From the IMG/VR virus record IMGVR_UViG_3300007734_000463, positions 1 to 21,683 of that record: a stretch of 21,683 nucleotides of DNA; one strand, written 5' to 3'. This DNA is from a virus. Below are positions 2,912 through 11,029 of the stretch, in pieces (position 1 is the first letter of the stretch; each line of letters opens with the position of its first letter). The translations under genes were made by a program, and so were the position numbers. The notes beneath the pieces are model-generated. The model was not told the origin of the DNA. It saw only the letters and a list, made by a program, of their open reading frames with translations, and made no database searches.

Positions 2912-2926
2912 TCCAACCTCCTTTAT

Positions 2927-2974
2927 CTCTCTATATAAATACTCTTCACTTCGTTCAGAGTATTTATTAGAGAG
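2927..2974 (-). promoter_or_regulatory. Structured RNA hairpin, copy A (leader of 69-aa gene)
   Basis: Sense-strand reading: outer stem CTCTCTA/TAGAGAG (7 bp), one unpaired A on the 3' side, middle stem ATAAATACTCT/AGAGTATTTAT (11 bp), and loop GAACGAAGTGA. The loop can close further as a tandem G-A pair plus AC/GU around a GAA triloop. TATATA precedes the element, and ATAAAGGAGG, the ribosome site, follows at once. Copies B and C share loop, outer stem and bulged A but have different, compensated middle stems. It lies between ardC and the 69-aa gene. Confidence 0.85.
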
Positions 2975-2993
2975 TATATAATCAGCAGCCTCT

Positions 2994-3920
2994 TTACGCA
3001 ACTGCATAAGTGTTCTCCATAATCATATCAGCAGCGTAACTAGCAGCGTTAGCCGCAGAGAACAGCAACTTAGGCTCATCCTTACAACGCTTAGCCCATG
3101 CCTTCAGGTAAGCAGCAGACTGAGAATCATCAAGTGGGACACCAGTATTAGCACACATAAACGCGGAAGCAAACTCAGCAATCAATTCTTCTTTCGCATA
3201 GTTATCACCAGTAACACGGGCTTCTCCTCCTCTATCACTATTATCTAGCCGATTAGTACGAGACTTGTGACCAGTACTATGCGCCATTTCGTGAAACATA
3301 GTATGGTAGTACGCTTCTAGCGACTCGAACTGGTCAAGGTCAGGCATCTCAATACGATCAAGATCAGAAATATAACATGCACGATCACCACCATGATGCA
3401 GCCCACCACCTAGAATATCACACCACTCAGTAGAGATAAGATCAGCCTCAGGATACCCATTATCCTCATGATCATAACCCTCAACCTCTACCTCAGGCAA
3501 CTCGAAGGTATCAAGACCATCAATCTGCGAGCCGTTAAAAACCCTGTAGTAGCGCTGAAACCACGAAGTCTTAGTCTCAACCTCACCCGTAGACTCATCC
3601 TCAACGTCACGCTTAGTAGCCTTATTGTAGATGACGATGGTGGACTTGCTACCCTTCTTCACCTGCATACCTTCATCAAGGCTGTTCATTGTGTAGAATC
3701 GTGGATCATTCCAACCATTCTGCTCAACGAGAAAGGACAGGTACATGCTGTTAAACCCTGTGTATACACGGTTACTGACACCATTACGAGGCATCATCGC
3801 ATCATTCCTACCACGAACAATCCATGGCTTAGACCATGGTGCCACACCAGATTCCATCAAGGCAATCAAACCTTCGGTAATCTCAGCGTGAACCTCTGCA
3901 ATGTCAAACTTTTTCTTCAT
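2994..3920 (-). CDS. ardC: ArdC-type antirestriction protein (zincin-like)
   Basis: 308-aa protein with the two-part ArdC layout: an N-terminal ssDNA-binding domain (about 1-140, with WSKPWIVRGRNDAMMPRNG and YTGFNSMYL motifs) and a C-terminal metallopeptidase-like domain. The zinc site is HEMAH at 210-214 with KEELIAE (244-249) supplying the likely third ligand, followed by a FASAF helix. ArdC proteins from plasmids and phages bind single-stranded DNA and protect incoming DNA from restriction. Length is normal and the catalytic residues are intact. The ATG at 3920 follows AAAGGGG, itself directly after hairpin B; hairpin A follows the stop. The gene is thus bracketed by two copies of the same RNA element. 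Confidence 0.92.
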   Translation of the reverse strand: MKKKFDIAEVHAEITEGLIALMESGVAPWSKPWIVRGRNDAMMPRNGVSNRVYTGFNSMYLSFLVEQNGWNDPRFYTMNSLDEGMQVKKGSKSTIVIYNKATKRDVEDESTGEVETKTSWFQRYYRVFNGSQIDGLDTFELPEVEVEGYDHEDNGYPEADLISTEWCDILGGGLHHGGDRACYISDLDRIEMPDLDQFESLEAYYHTMFHEMAHSTGHKSRTNRLDNSDRGGEARVTGDNYAKEELIAEFASAFMCANTGVPLDDSQSAAYLKAWAKRCKDEPKLLFSAANAASYAADMIMENTYAVA

Positions 3921-3935
3921 TTTGTTCCCCTTTAT

Positions 3936-3983
3936 CTCTCTATATAATTACTCTTCACTTCGTTCAGAGTAATTATTAGAGAG
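3936..3983 (-). promoter_or_regulatory. Structured RNA hairpin, copy B (leader of ardC)
   Basis: Same architecture as copies A and C: outer stem CTCTCTA/TAGAGAG, bulged A, middle stem ATAATTACTCT/AGAGTAATTAT, loop GAACGAAGTGA, then ATAAAGGGG as the ardC ribosome site. Relative to copy A, the middle-stem differences on one arm are matched on the other, so pairing is preserved. The tandem TAA stops of the 68-aa gene (3978-3973) fall in its 5' arm, so ribosomes finishing that gene would reach the outer stem. Confidence 0.85.
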
Positions 3984-4182
3984 TATATACCGTTGCCGAA
4001 TTGACTTCTTGCACATGCGCTACATCATTCCAATCGTAACCCATGCCCTGCACATAATCCATAAGATCCTCTACAAAACCAGCCTCTTGTGCTACATACT
4101 CATACGATTCCAATGCCCAATAGTCAGCATGACTAAGCACATCATCATTCCACTCAATAACATACAACATATCTTCGTTCAT
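3976..4182 (-). CDS. Acidic hypothetical protein, 68 aa
   Basis: Product begins MNEDMLYVIEWNDDVLSHAD and is rich in acidic and aromatic residues, like the 66- and 69-aa neighbours. The ATG at 4182 is chosen because AAAGGG is seven bases upstream; longer readings to 4242 lack a ribosome site. That ribosome site lies within a small triloop hairpin (4190-4202). The last codons and stop are inside hairpin B of ardC. No family recognised. Confidence 0.65.
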   Translation of the reverse strand: MNEDMLYVIEWNDDVLSHADYWALESYEYVAQEAGFVEDLMDYVQGMGYDWNDVAHVQEVNSATVYTL

Positions 4183-4284: not shown

Positions 4285-4485
4285 CTACCTACGTACCTGA
4301 GCCTCTTGCAAAGCAACATCAGCATTATGATGAGCCAAAGCATTCCAACTAGCATCATGGAAGTCTTCCCACTCACTCACAAACTCATCACTATCATCGT
4401 GAGGATTCACATACCACACCTCATAGAAACCATTATTACCGTCAATGATATGGTAATCTCCGATTACCCTACATGTAGCAAACAT
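4285..4485 (-). CDS. Acidic hypothetical protein, 66 aa
   Basis: Product begins MFATCRVIGDYHIIDGNNGF and continues YEVWYVNPHDDSDEF, an acidic, aromatic-rich sequence. The ATG at 4485 overlaps the TAA of the upstream 82-aa gene (TAATG); GGAAAGG is about nine bases upstream. A GTG three codons earlier is an alternative start. Composition resembles the 68- and 69-aa proteins. No family recognised. Confidence 0.6.
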   Translation of the reverse strand: MFATCRVIGDYHIIDGNNGFYEVWYVNPHDDSDEFVSEWEDFHDASWNALAHHNADVALQEAQVRR

Positions 4486-4733
4486 TATGCACACACCTTT
4501 CCATCCCGATCATCACCGGGCATCCGACTACTAGTTGGCAGTCCTTTAGGACTCACAATATCCGTAACATGACGCTTACCACGCTTAGCATAACCCCTAC
4601 CAGTAGCAGCAAACTGAGCAGCCACCTTCACACTATGCACATCATCGTACACGATCACATCATATACACGATCCCCAATGACCGCGACGCGCGTCTCGCG
4701 GATTACGCGGTTTTGTTTACGAGCCTTACGCAT
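4485..4733 (-). CDS. Basic hypothetical protein, 82 aa
   Basis: Product begins MRKARKQNRVIRETRVAVIG and is Arg/Lys-rich at both ends around a short beta-like core (RVYDVIVYDDVHSVKVAAQF). Charge suggests nucleic-acid binding (inference). The ATG at 4733 follows AAGGA by six bases. The ribosome site is inside a perfect 6-bp triloop hairpin (4738-4752). It follows the zinc-ribbon gene and overlaps the start of the 66-aa gene. No family recognised. Confidence 0.65.
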   Translation of the reverse strand: MRKARKQNRVIRETRVAVIGDRVYDVIVYDDVHSVKVAAQFAATGRGYAKRGKRHVTDIVSPKGLPTSSRMPGDDRDGKVCA

Positions 4734-4737
4734 ATAG

Positions 4738-4752
4738 ATTCCTTTCAGGAAT
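4738..4752 (-). promoter_or_regulatory. Triloop hairpin masking the ribosome site of the 82-aa gene
   Basis: Sense-strand ATTCCT-GAA-AGGAAT is a perfect 6-bp stem with a GAA triloop. The AAGGAAT 3' side is the ribosome site for the ATG at 4733, so folding would hide it. The GAA loop matches the loops tiling the gene just upstream. Confidence 0.6.
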
Positions 4753-4777
4753 GGACACGAACAGGGAGTTTAGCACA

Positions 4778-5200
4778 CTTGACTCTACGAGTCAAGCCGT
4801 ACCTTACGAGAGACTTTCACACGAGTCCCACCGACAACAACACTTACAGTGTTGTGACCCTTCTTGCCTTGCCGACCAACGATAGTAACAGAGTTACTAT
4901 CCGACGTAGCCAAAGCAACGTAGCAAACTTTGCAAATGCCTTCGGCATTGACTCGGTAATGCTTTTTGGCAAAGCCACAGCAACGGCACTTGACTTTTTT
5001 GACGGCAACCTTCGGTTCCACAATCTCCTCCTTCGGAGCAACAGTCTCATCGTCTTCGACGATCTTCACACCAACCTCATCTTCGATGAGGTCATCCAAC
5101 TCAACACCTTCGGTGTTCTCCATCAGTTCTTCGAACTGAGCCAACTCCTTCGGAGAAAGATTCTCCAACCATTCTTCGAATGCCAACTCAACTTCGTTGA
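4778..5200 (-). repeat. Series of ~15 small triloop hairpins inside the zinc-ribbon gene
   Basis: Perfect stems with 3-nt loops lie at 4778-4796 (8 bp), 4837-4855 (8), 4881-4901 (9), 4923-4933 (4), 4935-4949 (6), 4967-4977 (4), 5007-5017 (4), 5028-5038 (4), 5049-5063 (6), 5074-5092 (8), 5103-5117 (6), 5123-5139 (7), 5145-5155 (4; alternative 5152-5166, 6), 5170-5182 (5) and 5188-5200 (5). Ten loops read C-GAA-G in the sense strand. Stem sequences differ, so the constant is the shape and loop. GAA is in frame as Glu in seven cases and out of frame (Pro-Lys codons) in three. The TAG stop (4787-4785) lies partly in the loop of the first listed hairpin. Confidence 0.85.
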
Positions 5201-5216
5201 TGCTTCGGTTCAACAT
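4785..5216 (-). CDS. Zinc-ribbon protein with acidic N-terminus, 143 aa
   Basis: First gene of the leftward early unit. Residues 1-70 are acidic and helical (FEEWLENLSPKELAQFEELM, then Asp/Glu/Val-rich). Residues 77-98 hold CRCCGF...GICKVC (Cys77, 79, 80, 95, 98), a zinc-ribbon/knuckle. The C-terminus is basic (VKVSRKVRL). A charge-split protein with a zinc ribbon suggests nucleic-acid or polymerase binding (inference); no named family. AAGGAG precedes the ATG at 5216 by seven bases, directly after hairpin C. Its DNA is tiled by small triloop hairpins, and the repeated E-G, E-D, K-E residue pairs look partly dictated by them. Confidence 0.75.
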   Translation of the reverse strand: MLNRSINEVELAFEEWLENLSPKELAQFEELMENTEGVELDDLIEDEVGVKIVEDDETVAPKEEIVEPKVAVKKVKCRCCGFAKKHYRVNAEGICKVCYVALATSDSNSVTIVGRQGKKGHNTVSVVVGGTRVKVSRKVRLDS

Positions 5217-5232
5217 TTTCGGTCTCCTTTAT

Positions 5233-5280
5233 CTCTCTATATAAAATATCTTCACTTCGTTCAGATATTTTATTAGAGAG
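5233..5280 (-). promoter_or_regulatory. Structured RNA hairpin, copy C (leader of zinc-ribbon gene)
   Basis: Sense strand: CTCTCTA/TAGAGAG outer stem, bulged A, middle stem ATAAAATATCT/AGATATTTTAT, loop GAACGAAGTGA, followed by ATAAAGGAG as ribosome site. Four middle-stem positions differ from copy A and/or B and every change is compensated. Total length, 48 nt, is identical in all three copies, and TATATA precedes each. Confidence 0.85.
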
Positions 5281-5297
5281 TATATAAATCTCAGCCA

Positions 5298-5670
5298 GAC
5301 CATCTTCGATGGTCAACGTGTATCTCAACGAAGTTGAGACAAAAATAGTATCGTAGATACTAAAAACCATATCGAAGATATGACCAACAAACCAACATAA
5401 ACAAAACTTATATTACTCTGTAATATAAGACTATCACTACCTAAAGGTAGTGATAGAAGTAGTAATATCAATAGATATTACTATAATGTTTTGGTACTAA
5501 AACATTTTACAAACTTTGTTTGTAAAGAATTATTCTATTATATATAATAATAAGGGAACCTTATTATATATATATATAGTCCTCATCCAAAAATGTACGA
5601 CCCTCAACGTATACACCCTCTAAGAGAGGGTATATACGAAATCCACAAACCTCAGGCTTCACAAAGTGAA
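5298..5670. repeat. Non-coding array of about 12 tandem hairpins
   Basis: No gene here. Consecutive perfect stems: 5298-5314 (7 bp, TTC loop), 5323-5339 (7, GAA), 5346-5362 (7, GTA), 5368-5382 (6, GAA), 5407-5429 (10, TCT), 5431-5456 (11, TAAA), 5460-5483 (10, AATA), 5485-5506 (8, six-base loop), 5507-5525 (8, TTT), 5547-5567 (9, GAA), 5608-5638 (6+7 bp around one mismatch, AAG) and 5658-5670 (5, AAA). A self-complementary AT stretch (5536-5549) lies between. Stems share no sequence. Many abut with 1-10 bases between, so the region folds as a string of hairpins on either strand. It continues the hairpin series of the adjacent coding gene. Confidence 0.85.
5563..5590 (-). promoter_or_regulatory. 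Candidate leftward early promoter
   Basis: Minus-strand TTGGAT (5590-5585), 16-base spacer, TATAAT (5568-5563). The -10 is a perfect match but sits in an alternating AT tract; the -35 matches only TTG. If real, transcription starts near 5556 and gives a leader of about 340 nt carrying most of the hairpin array and hairpin C before the zinc-ribbon gene. Confidence 0.35.
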
Positions 5671-5779
5671 TACCAATACCCATCCCCCCTTTTACATACC
5701 CACACATATATATAATTACACTATTTGTATTTTTGGTTATTTTGTGTTTATAACTTATGTTGGGGGTTTTGTTTATTAT

Positions 5780-5800
5780 TTGTGTTAAGGTTGTGTTAAG
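5780..5800 (+). repeat. Tandem 10-nt direct repeat TTGTGTTAAG
   Basis: TTGTGTTAAG occurs at 5780-5789 and 5791-5800, separated by one G. Spacing of 11 bp (about one helical turn) would suit a dimeric regulator binding one face of the DNA near the rightward promoter (inference). Confidence 0.5.
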
Positions 5801-5820
5801 TTGTATTTAATTTGTTACTT

Positions 5821-5848
5821 TTGTGCTGTTGGTTTCGTATAGTATAGT
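5821..5848 (+). promoter_or_regulatory. Candidate rightward late promoter
   Basis: TTGTGC (5821-5826), 16-base spacer, TATAGT (5843-5848); a second TATAGT overlaps at 5838-5843. The match is partial. Predicted start about 5855, giving a T-rich leader of roughly 60 nt before the ATG at 5917. Confidence 0.35.
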
Positions 5849-5916
5849 AGAGGGGTTTATTTTTCTTCTTTCTTTTTTTTTTATTTTTATTCTTCTGGTG
5901 AAGGGATGTTATTGTT

Positions 5917-6597
5917 ATGGCTTATACTGCTCCTAGTGCTGTTGTTGCTGCTCAGGCTATTACTGCTTCGTTGTATAATACTTATGTTAAGGATAATATT
6001 ATTGATTTGAATGCTAGGTTGGGTCAGCAGGCGGGTATTTATACTACTGAGGCTGTTCGTGATGCGGCTATTACTAGTCCTACTGAGGGTATGGTGTGTT
6101 ATTTGACGGCTCCTACTGTTCCGGCTGCTACTGGTACGACAACGATGATCCCGTCTGGTATTCGTACGGTGTATAATGGTTCTGTTTGGGTGTGTGTGAC
6201 GGAGGTTGCGGCGACTACGCCAGCGTCGGGAACTACAACGAGTACTTCGTTTACGGCGACGCTTTCTGGTTCTCCGGGTACGAATCCGTCTGTGACGCTT
6301 GTTACTGGGACGACGGCGATGATTATGGTTCGTGCGGGTTTGCAGAATGGTACGGCTGGTTCGGCGGCTCTTTGTTCTGTGGCTGTGTCTGGCGCAACGA
6401 CAAAAGCGGCGGCATTGGATGATCAGGGAATCGCGTTTCGTTCGGCAACGGCATCAAATGATGCTATTATTGGGTCAAGTGTAGTTATGTCTGGATTGAC
6501 GGCAGGTACTAATACTTTCACTTTAAACTATGCAACGTCTAGTGCAAGTACGTCTACATTTGTGCGTCGTACGCTTGCTGTTCGTGGTATTGCTTAG
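5917..6597 (+). CDS. Virion structural protein (head or tail fibre/decoration type), 226 aa
   Basis: First gene of the rightward arm. GAAGGGAT lies about ten bases before the ATG. The N-terminus (AAQAITASLYNTYVKDNIID) matches the start of many phage tail/fibre proteins, and SPTEGMVCYLT...RTVYNGSVWVCV is the common short fold in which a Gly-Met-Tyr strand is followed by YNGSxW. The second half is Thr/Ser/Ala/Gly-rich and beta-like, ending FVRRTLAVRGIA. It is best read as a surface or fibre component. A structural gene upstream of the terminase is somewhat unusual but seen in small podovirus-like genomes. Codon use changes after about 6390 from T-ending to A/C-richer codons. Confidence 0.65.
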   Translation: MAYTAPSAVVAAQAITASLYNTYVKDNIIDLNARLGQQAGIYTTEAVRDAAITSPTEGMVCYLTAPTVPAATGTTTMIPSGIRTVYNGSVWVCVTEVAATTPASGTTTSTSFTATLSGSPGTNPSVTLVTGTTAMIMVRAGLQNGTAGSAALCSVAVSGATTKAAALDDQGIAFRSATASNDAIIGSSVVMSGLTAGTNTFTLNYATSSASTSTFVRRTLAVRGIA

Positions 6598-6627
6598 TCT
6601 AGTATAAAAACTTAAGAAAGAAGAATT

Positions 6628-6765
6628 ATGTTCGGAAGTAACGTACAACCAAAAAAGATTATTCGAGAATCTCCTAAAGAGTCTTGGAGTTGCATGAAGT
6701 GTAGTACGGAGAATAAGCGTTATATGGTTAAGTGTTCTTCTTGTGGTGAAAGGCGTGATGGCTAA
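6628..6765 (+). CDS. RanBP2-type zinc-finger mini-protein, 45 aa
   Basis: ATG at 6628 to TAA at 6765. The product begins MFGSNVQPKKIIRESPKESW; its core is W20-x-C22-x2-C25-x3-N29-x6-C36-x2-C39, the exact spacing of the RanBP2-type zinc finger (zf-RanBP), which in known proteins binds single-stranded RNA or ubiquitin. The tail is GERRDG. The ribosome site is a weak purine stretch (AAGAAAGAAG). Its end overlaps the TerL start by eight bases (ATGGCTAA), so the two may be translationally coupled. The position just before TerL is where small terminase genes often sit, but size and fold do not match one. Function unknown. Confidence 0.75.
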   Translation: MFGSNVQPKKIIRESPKESWSCMKCSTENKRYMVKCSSCGERRDG

Positions 6766-8227
6766 TTATAAGTGGTCGGATGATAAGTTGGATTCTACTG
6801 GTTTACAGGACATTATGCTTGGTTTTCCTGAGAAGATGGGTTGGTTTATCTCTAAGGGTTACTTGCCTCATTATTATCAGGCTTTGTTTCATTGTGATTC
6901 TAACGAGGAGAAGGTTACACGGTTCCGGCATCTTATTGCTGGTCGGCGCGGGGGCAAAACCTTGTCTGCTGCGTGGGAAGTACTCTTCTATTGCCTCTTT
7001 CCAAGCCAGTTTCACCTTGACGCTCATGGTAAAGAGAAGGATACACCCTTATGGGTATGGGCATTATCCTCATCCTACAAGGTTGGACGGCCTTCTTACA
7101 TTACTTTTCGCAATATTTGTATTGATGCTGGTCTAGTAATCGGTAAAGACGTTAAAGAGAATAAGGGTGGCTTGCGTTTCGAGTTTGATAATGGTAGTAT
7201 GGTCGAATTTAAGTCGGCTGAAGACCCCCAAGCCCTACGCGGCGCTGGACTAGACATTCTTTGGATGGACGAAGCAGCGTTTATCAGAGACGAAGAGGCT
7301 TGGAACGTAGTTAGACCATCCCTATCCGACAAGATGGGACTACTAATTACAACAACCACACCTAATCAGAAGAATTGGTTCTACGAAGAGTTCTTTTCTA
7401 AGGATTCTAAAGAGGATCTTACTAATAGTAGGGTAGAGTATCGTAGTATTGATAATCCTTACTTTGCTCGTAGTGAGTGGGAATACGTTAAGGCACGTTA
7501 CCACCCATTATTGTTCAACCAAGAGTATTGTGCATCATTCGATTCTATGGCAGGCCGCGACTTGTCTGGAGAATGGCTCAAATACTACGAGGACGATGAT
7601 CTTCCTCGCAATGAGGACGGATCTAAGAAGAAACTCCGCGTATACATCGGAGTAGACCCTGCCATTAGTACGAGTATTCGTGCAGACAGGTTTGTTCTTA
7701 CCGTCATCGGGGTTGCTGACTCTAATGAGGTCTTCTTGTTAGAACAATTAGCGGCTCGTATACCTTTTGTGGATCAGTTAGAGCGTATTGAAGAGTATTA
7801 TATTAAATGGAAGCCTGAAATCATCGGCATCGAGTCGAACGCATATCAGGCCGCGCTTGTTCAGCAGGTTGAACGATTATCTTCGATGCCTCCGGTTATT
7901 CCTATGCTTGCTCGCGGCAAGAAGTACGAACGTATCCTCGCAATGAGTCCATTGTTCCGTATCGGTAAGATTCGTATTAAACGAGAACACCGAGACTTCA
8001 TTGACGAGTGGATTAATTATGATGCTAGTGTAAGCAACTCTAAAGACGACTGTTTAGACAGTATGGAGATAGCGTTGCGTACGGCTGGTGCTCTTCTTGG
8101 AGAGTCTTTATTTATTGAAGCGCCAGAAGAAACACACGGTTTACCCCGATGGGTACTAGACGATAGGCCCGGAGTTGGTAAAAAAGAAGATCGTTACATT
8201 GATGAAGTTATGGGGAGTTTATGGTGA
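6758..8227 (+). CDS. terL: Terminase large subunit
   Basis: 489-aa packaging motor from the ATG at 6758, with GAAAGG four bases upstream (a GTG at 6743 would add five residues). ATPase domain: Walker A GRRGGKT at 62-68, Walker B LDILWMDEA at 165-173 with catalytic Glu, and coupling motif TTTTPNQ near 198-204. C-terminal RNase H-like nuclease: YIGVDPA (Asp300), IGIESN (Glu359), and DDCLDS (Asp430/431, Asp434). All catalytic residues are present. It acts at the portal to pump and cut concatemeric DNA. Length is typical. The stop overlaps the next start (ATGGTGA). Its DNA between about 7020 and 7360 is richer in A/C-ending codons than the flanks. Confidence 0.95.
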   Translation: MANYKWSDDKLDSTGLQDIMLGFPEKMGWFISKGYLPHYYQALFHCDSNEEKVTRFRHLIAGRRGGKTLSAAWEVLFYCLFPSQFHLDAHGKEKDTPLWVWALSSSYKVGRPSYITFRNICIDAGLVIGKDVKENKGGLRFEFDNGSMVEFKSAEDPQALRGAGLDILWMDEAAFIRDEEAWNVVRPSLSDKMGLLITTTTPNQKNWFYEEFFSKDSKEDLTNSRVEYRSIDNPYFARSEWEYVKARYHPLLFNQEYCASFDSMAGRDLSGEWLKYYEDDDLPRNEDGSKKKLRVYIGVDPAISTSIRADRFVLTVIGVADSNEVFLLEQLAARIPFVDQLERIEEYYIKWKPEIIGIESNAYQAALVQQVERLSSMPPVIPMLARGKKYERILAMSPLFRIGKIRIKREHRDFIDEWINYDASVSNSKDDCLDSMEIALRTAGALLGESLFIEAPEETHGLPRWVLDDRPGVGKKEDRYIDEVMGSLW

Positions 8228-8698: not shown

Positions 8699-11029
8699 GT
8701 GATCCGTACTGTTTTGGATGAAGCATTGATGATTGAGAATGGTGATGAGTTCCCTCCCGCTTCGGGGCTAGTTAAGCGTGTCGATGAGTTGGTGCGTCAG
8801 CGAGAGTTGTTGGAGCGTCAATGGAAACTAAACTTAGCCTTCTTTAAGGGTAAGCAGTACGTTTTTTATAATCGGCGTAGTCGTCGTATTGAGAGTATGC
8901 CTACTGATGATGGTGATAAGCCTCGTTATCGTGTGCGTCTGGTTGCTAATCAGATTGCTCCGCATACTATGAGTCTTCTTAGTCGGTTAACTAAGACTAA
9001 GCCTACTTTTTTTGCTACTCCGGGTCAGGCTTCTTATGAGGCTATTAAGGCTACTGAGGTTGCTGAGACTCTGCTTGATTTCTGGTGGGATAAGTTTAAT
9101 CTTAGTGAGAAGCGTGAAGAAGCGATTATGTGGGGTATCATTTGTGGTAATGGTTTCTGGAAGGTTAGTTGGGATACAACGGTTGGTTCTAGTATTAAGT
9201 TGATGATTAATCCTCAGGGCCAGCCTATTCTTAGCCCTCTTGTTGAACACTTTTTTCGTGACGAGTTGGAGAAGTCTGGTATGGATCCAAGGATGTTTGA
9301 GAAGGAAGTCTTTGAAGGGGAGATTAGGGTTGATGTTCTTGCTCCTTTTGATGTTCTTCTTGATGATACTGCTCAGGTGTTTGAGGATTGTAAGTATGCT
9401 ATTTGTATGCATCCGATGAGTAGTGAGGAGATTTATACTCGTTATGGTGCGCGGTTGAAGGCTAATGCTGTTAATCAGTATCCCGATGAGACTCTTCCGG
9501 GTACTTATAATATGAGTGCTGGTAAGACTAAAGAGAATGTGCGTGTTGTTTATTATGGTTACTTCTTGCCTACGGCTGATAAGCCTGAGGGTAGGTATGT
9601 GGTGTTTGTTAAGTCTCCTGATATTGTGTTGTATGATGGTCCTTGGCCTTATCCGTTTAAAATGCTTCCTCTTGTTAAGTTTCCGGGTATGCGTGTGCCG
9701 GGTCAGTTGTATGATTCGAGTGTTGTTGAGCAGGCTATTCCTCTTCAGAAGGAATTGAATCGTACGCTTAGTCAGATGATTGAGTATAAGAATCTTACGT
9801 TGAAGCCGCAGATGTTGGCTCCGGTTGGTTCTTTGCGTCAGCGTATGACTGATGAGCCGGGTGCTATCTTTGAGTATAATCCGGTTGCTGGTAAGGTGCC
9901 TGAGGCTATTCCTCTTCCGGGTTTACCATCGTATGTGTTTGATCATGTTCAGGATCTTGGTCAGCGTATTCGTGATACGTTTGGTTTGAATGAGATTCTT
10001 CAGGGTGATGTGCCGCCTAACGTGGAGGCCGGTGTCGCTATCGACTTGTTGCAAGAAGCAGCAACGGATCGTCATGCTCCACAGATCCTTATGCTTGAGA
10101 AGTCTCTGGAACGTGCTGGTAACATGATGCTTCAGTTGGCTCAGAAGTATTATACTGAGCCGCGTATGCTGGTTATTAATGGTGCTGGTAGTCGTCCTAA
10201 GATTGAGCGTTTTGAGTCTGCGGATATTATTGCTGGTGTTGGTGTTCGTGTGGAGACTGGTTCCGGGTTGCCTCGTACTCGTGCGGGTAAGCAGGCGCGT
10301 GTTATGCAGATGCTTCAGATGGGGCTTCTTACTCCTACTAAGGCGTATAAGTATCTTGATATGGCTGACTTCAAGTCGCTTCAGGCACAGTTTCAGGCTG
10401 ATGAGGAGCAGGCTAGTCGTGAGCATGATAAGTTGATGGATGGTGGTGTCGTTAATGAGGCTGCTGCGCGTATGGCTCAGGAGCAACTTATGGTGAGTAT
10501 GATGCAGGTTGATCCGAATACTGGACAACCGATGCCTATTGATCCTGCTGCGTTGCAGGCTAGTGTTGAGGCTGGGTTGCAACCGTTGGCGTATGAGAAT
10601 AAAAATATTCATTTGGAGCAGCATGGTTTGTATATGAAGTCTCCAGAGTTTGAGGATCTTCCGTCTGATGTGCGTGATCGTTTCTATAAGCATTACGAGT
10701 TGACACAAATGGCGTTGACGAGTGAGACTGTTCCGCAGGGTTCGGCTCCTCGTGTGTCGTACCAGTTCCGTGGCGCTGTTGGGCCTACGGCTACTAGTAA
10801 GATTCTTGCTCAGGGTGGCGTGTCGGGTGTTACGCCTGAAGAATTGCTTGAGCCGAGTCTTGATACGGTGGTTATTGATAATAAGGATAAGCCTAATGCT
10901 GAAGGTCAGCCGGGTAATCAGGTTATGGATTATCAGCAGAAACAGTTGCAGGATCTTATTACACAGGATTCGAAGGATCAACAGGCTTTGTCTTTTGAAA
11001 GGGAGAAGGCGGCGATTAAACGTGTCTAA
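8699..11029 (+). CDS. Portal protein (P22-type, long)
   Basis: 776 aa from a GTG at 8699 preceded by AGAGGGGA; an ATG ten codons later is an alternative start. N-terminal RQRELLERQWKLNLAFFKGK, then ANQIAPHTMSLLSRLTKTKP (about 83-102) and EAIMWGIICGNGFWKVSWD (141-159) are characteristic of podovirus portals. A middle region (VEQAIPLQKELNRTLSQMIE) matches the portal stem/clip helices. The C-terminal 200 residues are Gln-rich and helical, as in the barrel of long portals such as that of P22 (about 725 aa). It forms the dodecameric ring at one capsid vertex, docking TerL during packaging and later the tail. The DNA uses strongly T-ending codons. The end overlaps the HTH gene by eight bases. Confidence 0.9.
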   Translation: MIRTVLDEALMIENGDEFPPASGLVKRVDELVRQRELLERQWKLNLAFFKGKQYVFYNRRSRRIESMPTDDGDKPRYRVRLVANQIAPHTMSLLSRLTKTKPTFFATPGQASYEAIKATEVAETLLDFWWDKFNLSEKREEAIMWGIICGNGFWKVSWDTTVGSSIKLMINPQGQPILSPLVEHFFRDELEKSGMDPRMFEKEVFEGEIRVDVLAPFDVLLDDTAQVFEDCKYAICMHPMSSEEIYTRYGARLKANAVNQYPDETLPGTYNMSAGKTKENVRVVYYGYFLPTADKPEGRYVVFVKSPDIVLYDGPWPYPFKMLPLVKFPGMRVPGQLYDSSVVEQAIPLQKELNRTLSQMIEYKNLTLKPQMLAPVGSLRQRMTDEPGAIFEYNPVAGKVPEAIPLPGLPSYVFDHVQDLGQRIRDTFGLNEILQGDVPPNVEAGVAIDLLQEAATDRHAPQILMLEKSLERAGNMMLQLAQKYYTEPRMLVINGAGSRPKIERFESADIIAGVGVRVETGSGLPRTRAGKQARVMQMLQMGLLTPTKAYKYLDMADFKSLQAQFQADEEQASREHDKLMDGGVVNEAAARMAQEQLMVSMMQVDPNTGQPMPIDPAALQASVEAGLQPLAYENKNIHLEQHGLYMKSPEFEDLPSDVRDRFYKHYELTQMALTSETVPQGSAPRVSYQFRGAVGPTATSKILAQGGVSGVTPEELLEPSLDTVVIDNKDKPNAEGQPGNQVMDYQQKQLQDLITQDSKDQQALSFEREKAAIKRV

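Follow-up and report, generated by a model that had tools for sequence, protein, structure and literature searches.

The window analyzed here is the whole 21,683-bp fragment of an IMG/VR virus record (G000), derived from an uncultured, podovirus-like phage. Its right half carries the genes for TerL (6743-8227, plus strand), a P22/SU10-type portal (8699-11029, plus strand), the major head protein and tail proteins. The genes of the left half run on the minus strand, among them a gene for an ArdC-like protein (2994-3920) and gene 1 (4785-5216), the first early gene, which encodes a protein of 143 amino acids. The sign of the GC skew flips near position 5,700, and reading leftward from there a promoter-like block (5684-5740, minus strand) is followed by a string of hairpins (5298-5670) and then by gene 1. 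For comparison, 80 uncultured contigs were gathered by a TerL scan. No close isolated phage was found, the best TerL match being about 25-28% identical, and neither gene 1 nor the hairpin string had a match among isolated phages; a host search in genome contigs yielded no confirmed TerL relative and no match to the promoter pattern. The hairpin string belongs to a little-known family of uncultured lake dsDNA phages. One relative, G003 (44,459 bp), looks complete because its ends overlap by 127 bp; its genes include ones for a family A polymerase, a primase-helicase, a ribonucleotide reductase, a Rad52-like protein and a sigma-like protein, and there is just one hairpin-dense stretch in it. A terminal overlap of identical length, 127 bp, occurs in G003, G004 and G005 (43-44.5 kb) and probably arose from the k-mer overlap of the assembly, the genomes being complete or circularly permuted. 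As a further observation, L086 (3651-9320, minus strand) and its relatives encode, amid structural genes, an orphan protein of 1885-2059 amino acids without recognizable family; a search of Pfam, PHROG and PDB with the largest protein (1889 amino acids) gave no match.

The string comprises 12 consecutive hairpins, nine of them with triloops, which are located in plus-strand numbering at 5298-5314, 5323-5339, 5346-5362, 5368-5382, 5407-5429, 5431-5456, 5460-5483, 5484-5505 (with a loop of 6), 5506-5526, 5547-5567, about 5609-5637 (core 5615-5631) and 5658-5670. We assign the string to the minus strand from the promoter position and the polarity described below, the evidence from wobble pairs being weak. 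The stems span 5-12 bp. An earlier note on this DNA had described about twelve hairpins, eight or more with 3-nt loops, which agrees with our count; it had also placed few or no bases between them, which is true of some gaps (0 nt) but not of others, which reach about 40 nt. Within the window the stems have no common sequence, as had been stated (the relative L038 has one duplicated hairpin unit), and a direct-repeat family is absent from 5298-5670, in agreement with the view that this is no CRISPR or iteron array. When the sequence was subjected to 500 dinucleotide-preserving shuffles, hairpins with a stem of at least 6 bp and a loop of 3-5 nt numbered 0.51 on average (maximum 4) compared to 10 in the string, and triloops 0.19 (maximum 2) compared to 8. 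RNA folding was likewise far below that of shuffles on both strands (z of -8.1 for minus and -12.5 for plus). In the rest of the 21.7-kb window, outside about 4440-5640, most 400-bp bins hold 0-1 such hairpins and isolated bins hold 3; the TerL, portal, head and ArdC genes have no hairpin excess over shuffles.

The hairpins continue into gene 1, whose coding sequence contains eight of them, compared to a mean of 0.29 in dinucleotide shuffles and of 0.68 (maximum 3) in 500 synonymous-codon shuffles. Across 19 distinct homologues of the gene, 82 hairpins were counted, while 14.3 are found under synonymous shuffling. The hairpin tiling of gene 1 is due to synonymous codon choice. Its downstream end lies at 4738-4796 (minus strand, hairpins 4738-4752 and 4778-4796), and with the eight hairpins of the neighboring gene the roughly 900 bp of near-continuous hairpins proposed earlier were recovered. 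The gene 1 protein is conserved and zinc-ribbon-like, with a CxxC...CxxC arrangement and a basic C-terminus. It had no match in Pfam or PHROG, and a search of its AlphaFold2 model (mean pLDDT 74) against the PDB gave no match at E<=0.001.

A second kind of hairpin, related to those of the string, resides directly in front of early genes. In the 5'UTR of gene 1 (5228-5284, minus strand) it reads TATACTCTCTA, a variable stem, GAAC(GAA)GTGA, the complementary stem and TAGAGAGATAAAGGAG, and ends at the Shine-Dalgarno sequence; a second copy lies upstream of the ArdC-like gene (3930-3989, minus strand) and a third upstream of a small early gene (2920-2981, minus strand). The relatives contain 27 distinct elements of this kind (28 regex matches, one of which was spurious), almost all immediately 5' of a start codon; their outer arms (CTCTCTA/TAGAGAG) and the GAAC(GAA)GTGA tip are conserved, and the stem between them varies freely. 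The variable stem is near-perfectly paired in all members, with G-U at 0 of about 330 pairs. The G-A mismatched positions of the tip appear only in the coding-strand reading, and this favors the coding strand as the one on which this element works.

A dense string located within 4.5 kb upstream of TerL was identified in 35 sequences, the window and 34 relatives, the latter number being a lower bound as many other contigs end too soon upstream to judge. Order and spacing of the hairpins are alike across these relatives while the stems differ, as illustrated by TATAGAGTC-GAA-GACTCTATA in L047 and TATAGAGTA-TTC-TACTCTATA in L036. The array-bearing relatives differ in base composition, and their terminases are about 70% identical. 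RNAalifold predicted 34 pairs on an alignment of 18 sequences, 21 of them with double-sided changes; paired cells amounted to 98.7% compared to 85.7% in shuffles (0 of 500 as high) and double-changed cells to 64 compared to 16.7, a count which is biased toward structure as prediction and counting use one alignment. When the partners were slid as a control, 27.8-41.1% of the cells were paired. Without sliding, two of the three helices are free of broken cells. For arrays of at least 85% identity, the substitutions per site were 0.024 in stems, 0.093 in linkers and 0.175 in loops, so that stems evolve about 4 times slower than linkers and about 7 times slower than loops in pairwise comparisons that reuse sequences and are, therefore, not independent. 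Broken pairs cannot be counted reliably from global pairwise alignments of the whole leader once identity falls below about 80%. Short dense hairpins with C(TTC)G tips are retained even in the GC-rich and distant L072. No hairpin string was found in L059, in which the upstream region is present, and L079 has a single short structured stretch only. Where relatives have the string, L059 has some 1.9 kb (5280-7197) in which neither hairpins nor convincing genes are seen. The earlier note had asked for the same architecture in related phages and had named deletion of the region, or decay of the stems without compensation, as the refuting outcome; the string was found at the same place in at least 34 TerL relatives, and in these the stems are kept and compensated. 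That selection acts on the hairpins is well supported.

The promoter-like block consists of CCAAAAATACAAATAGTGTAATTATATATATGTG followed by AAAAGGGGGG (AACGGGGG in relatives). Its general layout is G-T-N-C-A/C-AAAAATATA, then AGTAAT or a TATAAT-like sequence, TATATATATG and, about 10 nt later, AACGGGGG. The motif is located directly upstream of the string in nearly all relatives, and the pattern matches 33 viral contigs with one match each. Over 23 distinct sites, 0 hairpins were found in the 330 bp upstream of the block and 189 in the 530 bp downstream; in the window, the non-coding DNA right of the block (197 bp) contains no hairpins. Because hairpins occur only downstream, the block looks like an early promoter and the string like a transcribed leader. 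We infer from the sequence that the block is the promoter of the early leftward operon and that the string is transcribed from it. No terminator is present between the string and gene 1; terminator-like sites amount to a single weak one, compared to 0.6 expected. In some relatives (L008, L012, L019, L028 and others) the start of the leader is G-rich on the minus strand, e.g. GTGGGTGGGTCATAACGGGGGTATGGG, which is not the case in L040; judged from these letters, a G-quadruplex could form at the 5' end of the RNA in such phages.

As the best explanation, to which we give a little less than an even chance, it might be hypothesized that the string is the structured 5' leader of an early mRNA and protects it against single-strand-specific nucleases; the protective role itself is a guess. 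The promoter-like block would start the leftward early transcript, of which the first 900 nt or so (leader and gene 1) would fold into one short perfect helix after another, each with a minimal loop, while the later early genes would each carry one related hairpin just before the ribosome-binding site. The helices would function as helices and not by their sequence, so that stems may drift as long as pairing is kept and loops may change fastest and even flip, and nucleases specific for single strands would be physically kept off an early RNA which is rich in AU and for the most part untranslated. Bacterial mRNAs are known to be stabilized by stem-loops located in the 5' leader or inside an operon (ompA, puf; PMC7509114). 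A sequence-specific partner is unlikely because loops and stems are free while number and place of the helices are kept. Since the leader is about 69% AU and C-poor on the minus strand, we further infer that Rho is an unlikely adversary and that single-strand-specific RNases are the likely one. Among the roles suggested in the earlier note, a structured early leader, together with a shield or decoy RNA, is favored since the string lies downstream of the block, reads into gene 1 and is continued by synonymous tiling; a mobile population of palindromes is unsupported as a mobile family, the stems being unrelated and the positions conserved. One 5' hairpin is usually enough to stabilize an mRNA. 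A dozen hairpins exceeds the obvious need of mRNA stabilization, which counts against the string as a protective leader, as does L059, which seems to be without a string.

Second in our ranking, and rather unlikely, is that the leader, processed off or in place, is a non-coding RNA which titrates a host helix-binding protein such as RNase III, a degradosome helicase or a defense protein sensing dsRNA or structure. Stems of 6-14 bp could bind such a protein and yet be poor substrates, and each phage has about ten similar, sequence-unrelated helices with unconstrained loops in an early-operon position; in addition, structured phage RNA from terminase genes is bound by a defense cyclase (PMC10686824). 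However, a separate decoy would need neither hairpins that enter the coding sequence of gene 1 nor single ones that recur before other genes, and the lack of a terminator between string and gene 1 also argues against it.

The near-absence of G-U pairs, which is unusual for RNA-level structure, is our main reason for doubt. Hairpins with one G-U mismatch number 4, compared to 96 perfect ones (at least 9 bp). Strand counts of G-U pairs (minus:plus) were 8:1 initially, 8:7 with artefacts when based on alignments, and 4:1 under strict counting, and the strand call from wobble pairs was set aside; the slight minus-strand excess could come about because coding strands here are generally rich in G and T. 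Template switching might account for the scarcity of G-U, as might the stability required of AU-rich stems or a role at the DNA level. In the last case the hairpins would act as cruciforms or single-strand hairpins within the divergent region, at a replication origin or at a site of priming or recombination, to which we assign a small probability: closure of 97 of 126 triloops by C-G, the GC-skew switch at the same spot and the primase-helicase, polymerase and Rad52-like protein of the complete relative are in favor, but the hairpins stop at the promoter boundary, extend into coding sequence and precede Shine-Dalgarno sites, and the skew switch is expected from divergent transcription alone. 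Slightly less probable still is a regulatory leader made up of attenuators, put-like antitermination sites or targets for autoregulation by the gene 1 protein. The gene that comes first downstream of the string does encode a small conserved protein of the zinc-ribbon type whose C-terminus is basic, but its model matched no recognized nucleic-acid-binding fold, there is only the one weak terminator-like site given above, and the hairpins have neither a conserved loop nor a repeated linker motif, with loops that flip between relatives.

Among changed triloops, 27 of 66 are exact reverse complements of each other (9.4 expected), and double changes (130) outnumber single ones (62). Template switching can create and maintain or repair RNA hairpins (PMC8794818), and loop inversions together with an excess of double changes are the footprint expected of it. 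Thus, template-switch-like events probably shape the string, a mechanism which contributes without explaining the place of the hairpins. It does not replace selection because stems are the slowest sites and coding hairpins need synonymous choice. A recent duplication of a hairpin with its linker in L038 (56-146), CTTATACTAC-GGA-GTAGTATAAG and CTTATAGTAC-GGA-GTACTATAAG, suggests a possible route by which the string grows. That the string is a mere mutational by-product, with palindromes made or perfected by template switching in an otherwise unconstrained stretch, would fit the inversions, the double changes and the published mechanism, but is very improbable given that stems are more conserved than linkers of the same region, that the hairpins are conserved in number and position, that they extend to synonymous sites within a gene and that the non-coding DNA right of the block is free of hairpins.

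The usual way to recognize structured phage RNAs is by the fold and sequence that they have in common. In this family, what selection maintains is only the presence of short helices at set positions, along the leader and into a coding gene, among relatives whose terminases are about 70% identical. If the string is RNA, this would point to a pressure on naked single-stranded mRNA in early infection, by decay or RNA-targeting defense, which is directly testable; the string also offers a natural system, and a clean one, in which to study how template switching and selection jointly maintain perfect hairpins. More tentatively than the leader itself, and with clearly less confidence, it might be speculated that helix-chain leaders are a new class of phage RNA. 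In such a leader, about twelve hairpins without common sequence would be under selection for their helices only, would extend into coding sequence by synonymous choice and would be supplied and repaired by template switching; the whole would act in bulk as a shield or decoy, directed at an RNase of the host or at a defense protein that senses structure.

A literature search on tandem hairpins or hairpin arrays in phages gave no match, and several known systems share single features with the string. The hairpin promoters of the N4 virion RNA polymerase (PMC4496689) resemble the string in having short stems closed by C-G, loops of 3 nt and a location in the early region, but depend on a giant virion RNA polymerase and on conserved bases in the stem and in the loop (5' G and 3' A of the triloop); promoters of this type were rejected as there are more than 20 different triloops and loops flip between relatives. 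A Pfam search for PF00940 (T7-like RNA polymerase) gave no match, as was also the case for the positive controls. TIGR-Tas stem-loop arrays (PMC12045711) are likewise tandem variable palindromes, some of them in viruses. They were rejected because box C/D motifs are absent (TGATG or CTGA occurs in 4 of 248 linkers), because linkers are often too short for TIGR spacers (76 are below 10 nt) and because the Nop-domain Tas protein (PF01798) had no match in 7 phage records, some of them fragments, while 6 of 14 control genomes matched. GOLLD, ROOL and OLE (PMC12286853) are also long, structured, phage-associated RNAs, a few hundred nt in length and with covariation support, but they are multi-branched with pseudoknots and kissing loops, whereas the hairpins of the string are simple and local, with loops of 3-4 nt. 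An Rfam search at the gathering score yielded only tRNAs, in 3 of 6 relatives, and nothing in the window; an ornate RNA of the GOLLD or ROOL kind was rejected on both grounds. The CBASS-activating cabRNA (PMC10686824) resembles the string in its length of about 400 nt, its hairpins and its proximity to terminase genes, but is transcribed from the terminase genes themselves, while the string lies upstream of them on the opposite strand. The hairpins in the ompA 5'UTR and between the puf cistrons (PMC7509114) are similarly located in an untranslated leader or intergenic region, with a sequence that is largely unimportant and a defined place relative to the Shine-Dalgarno sequence; these systems have one to few hairpins, whereas the string comprises a dozen in tandem over about 400 nt and continues as tiling into the coding sequence.
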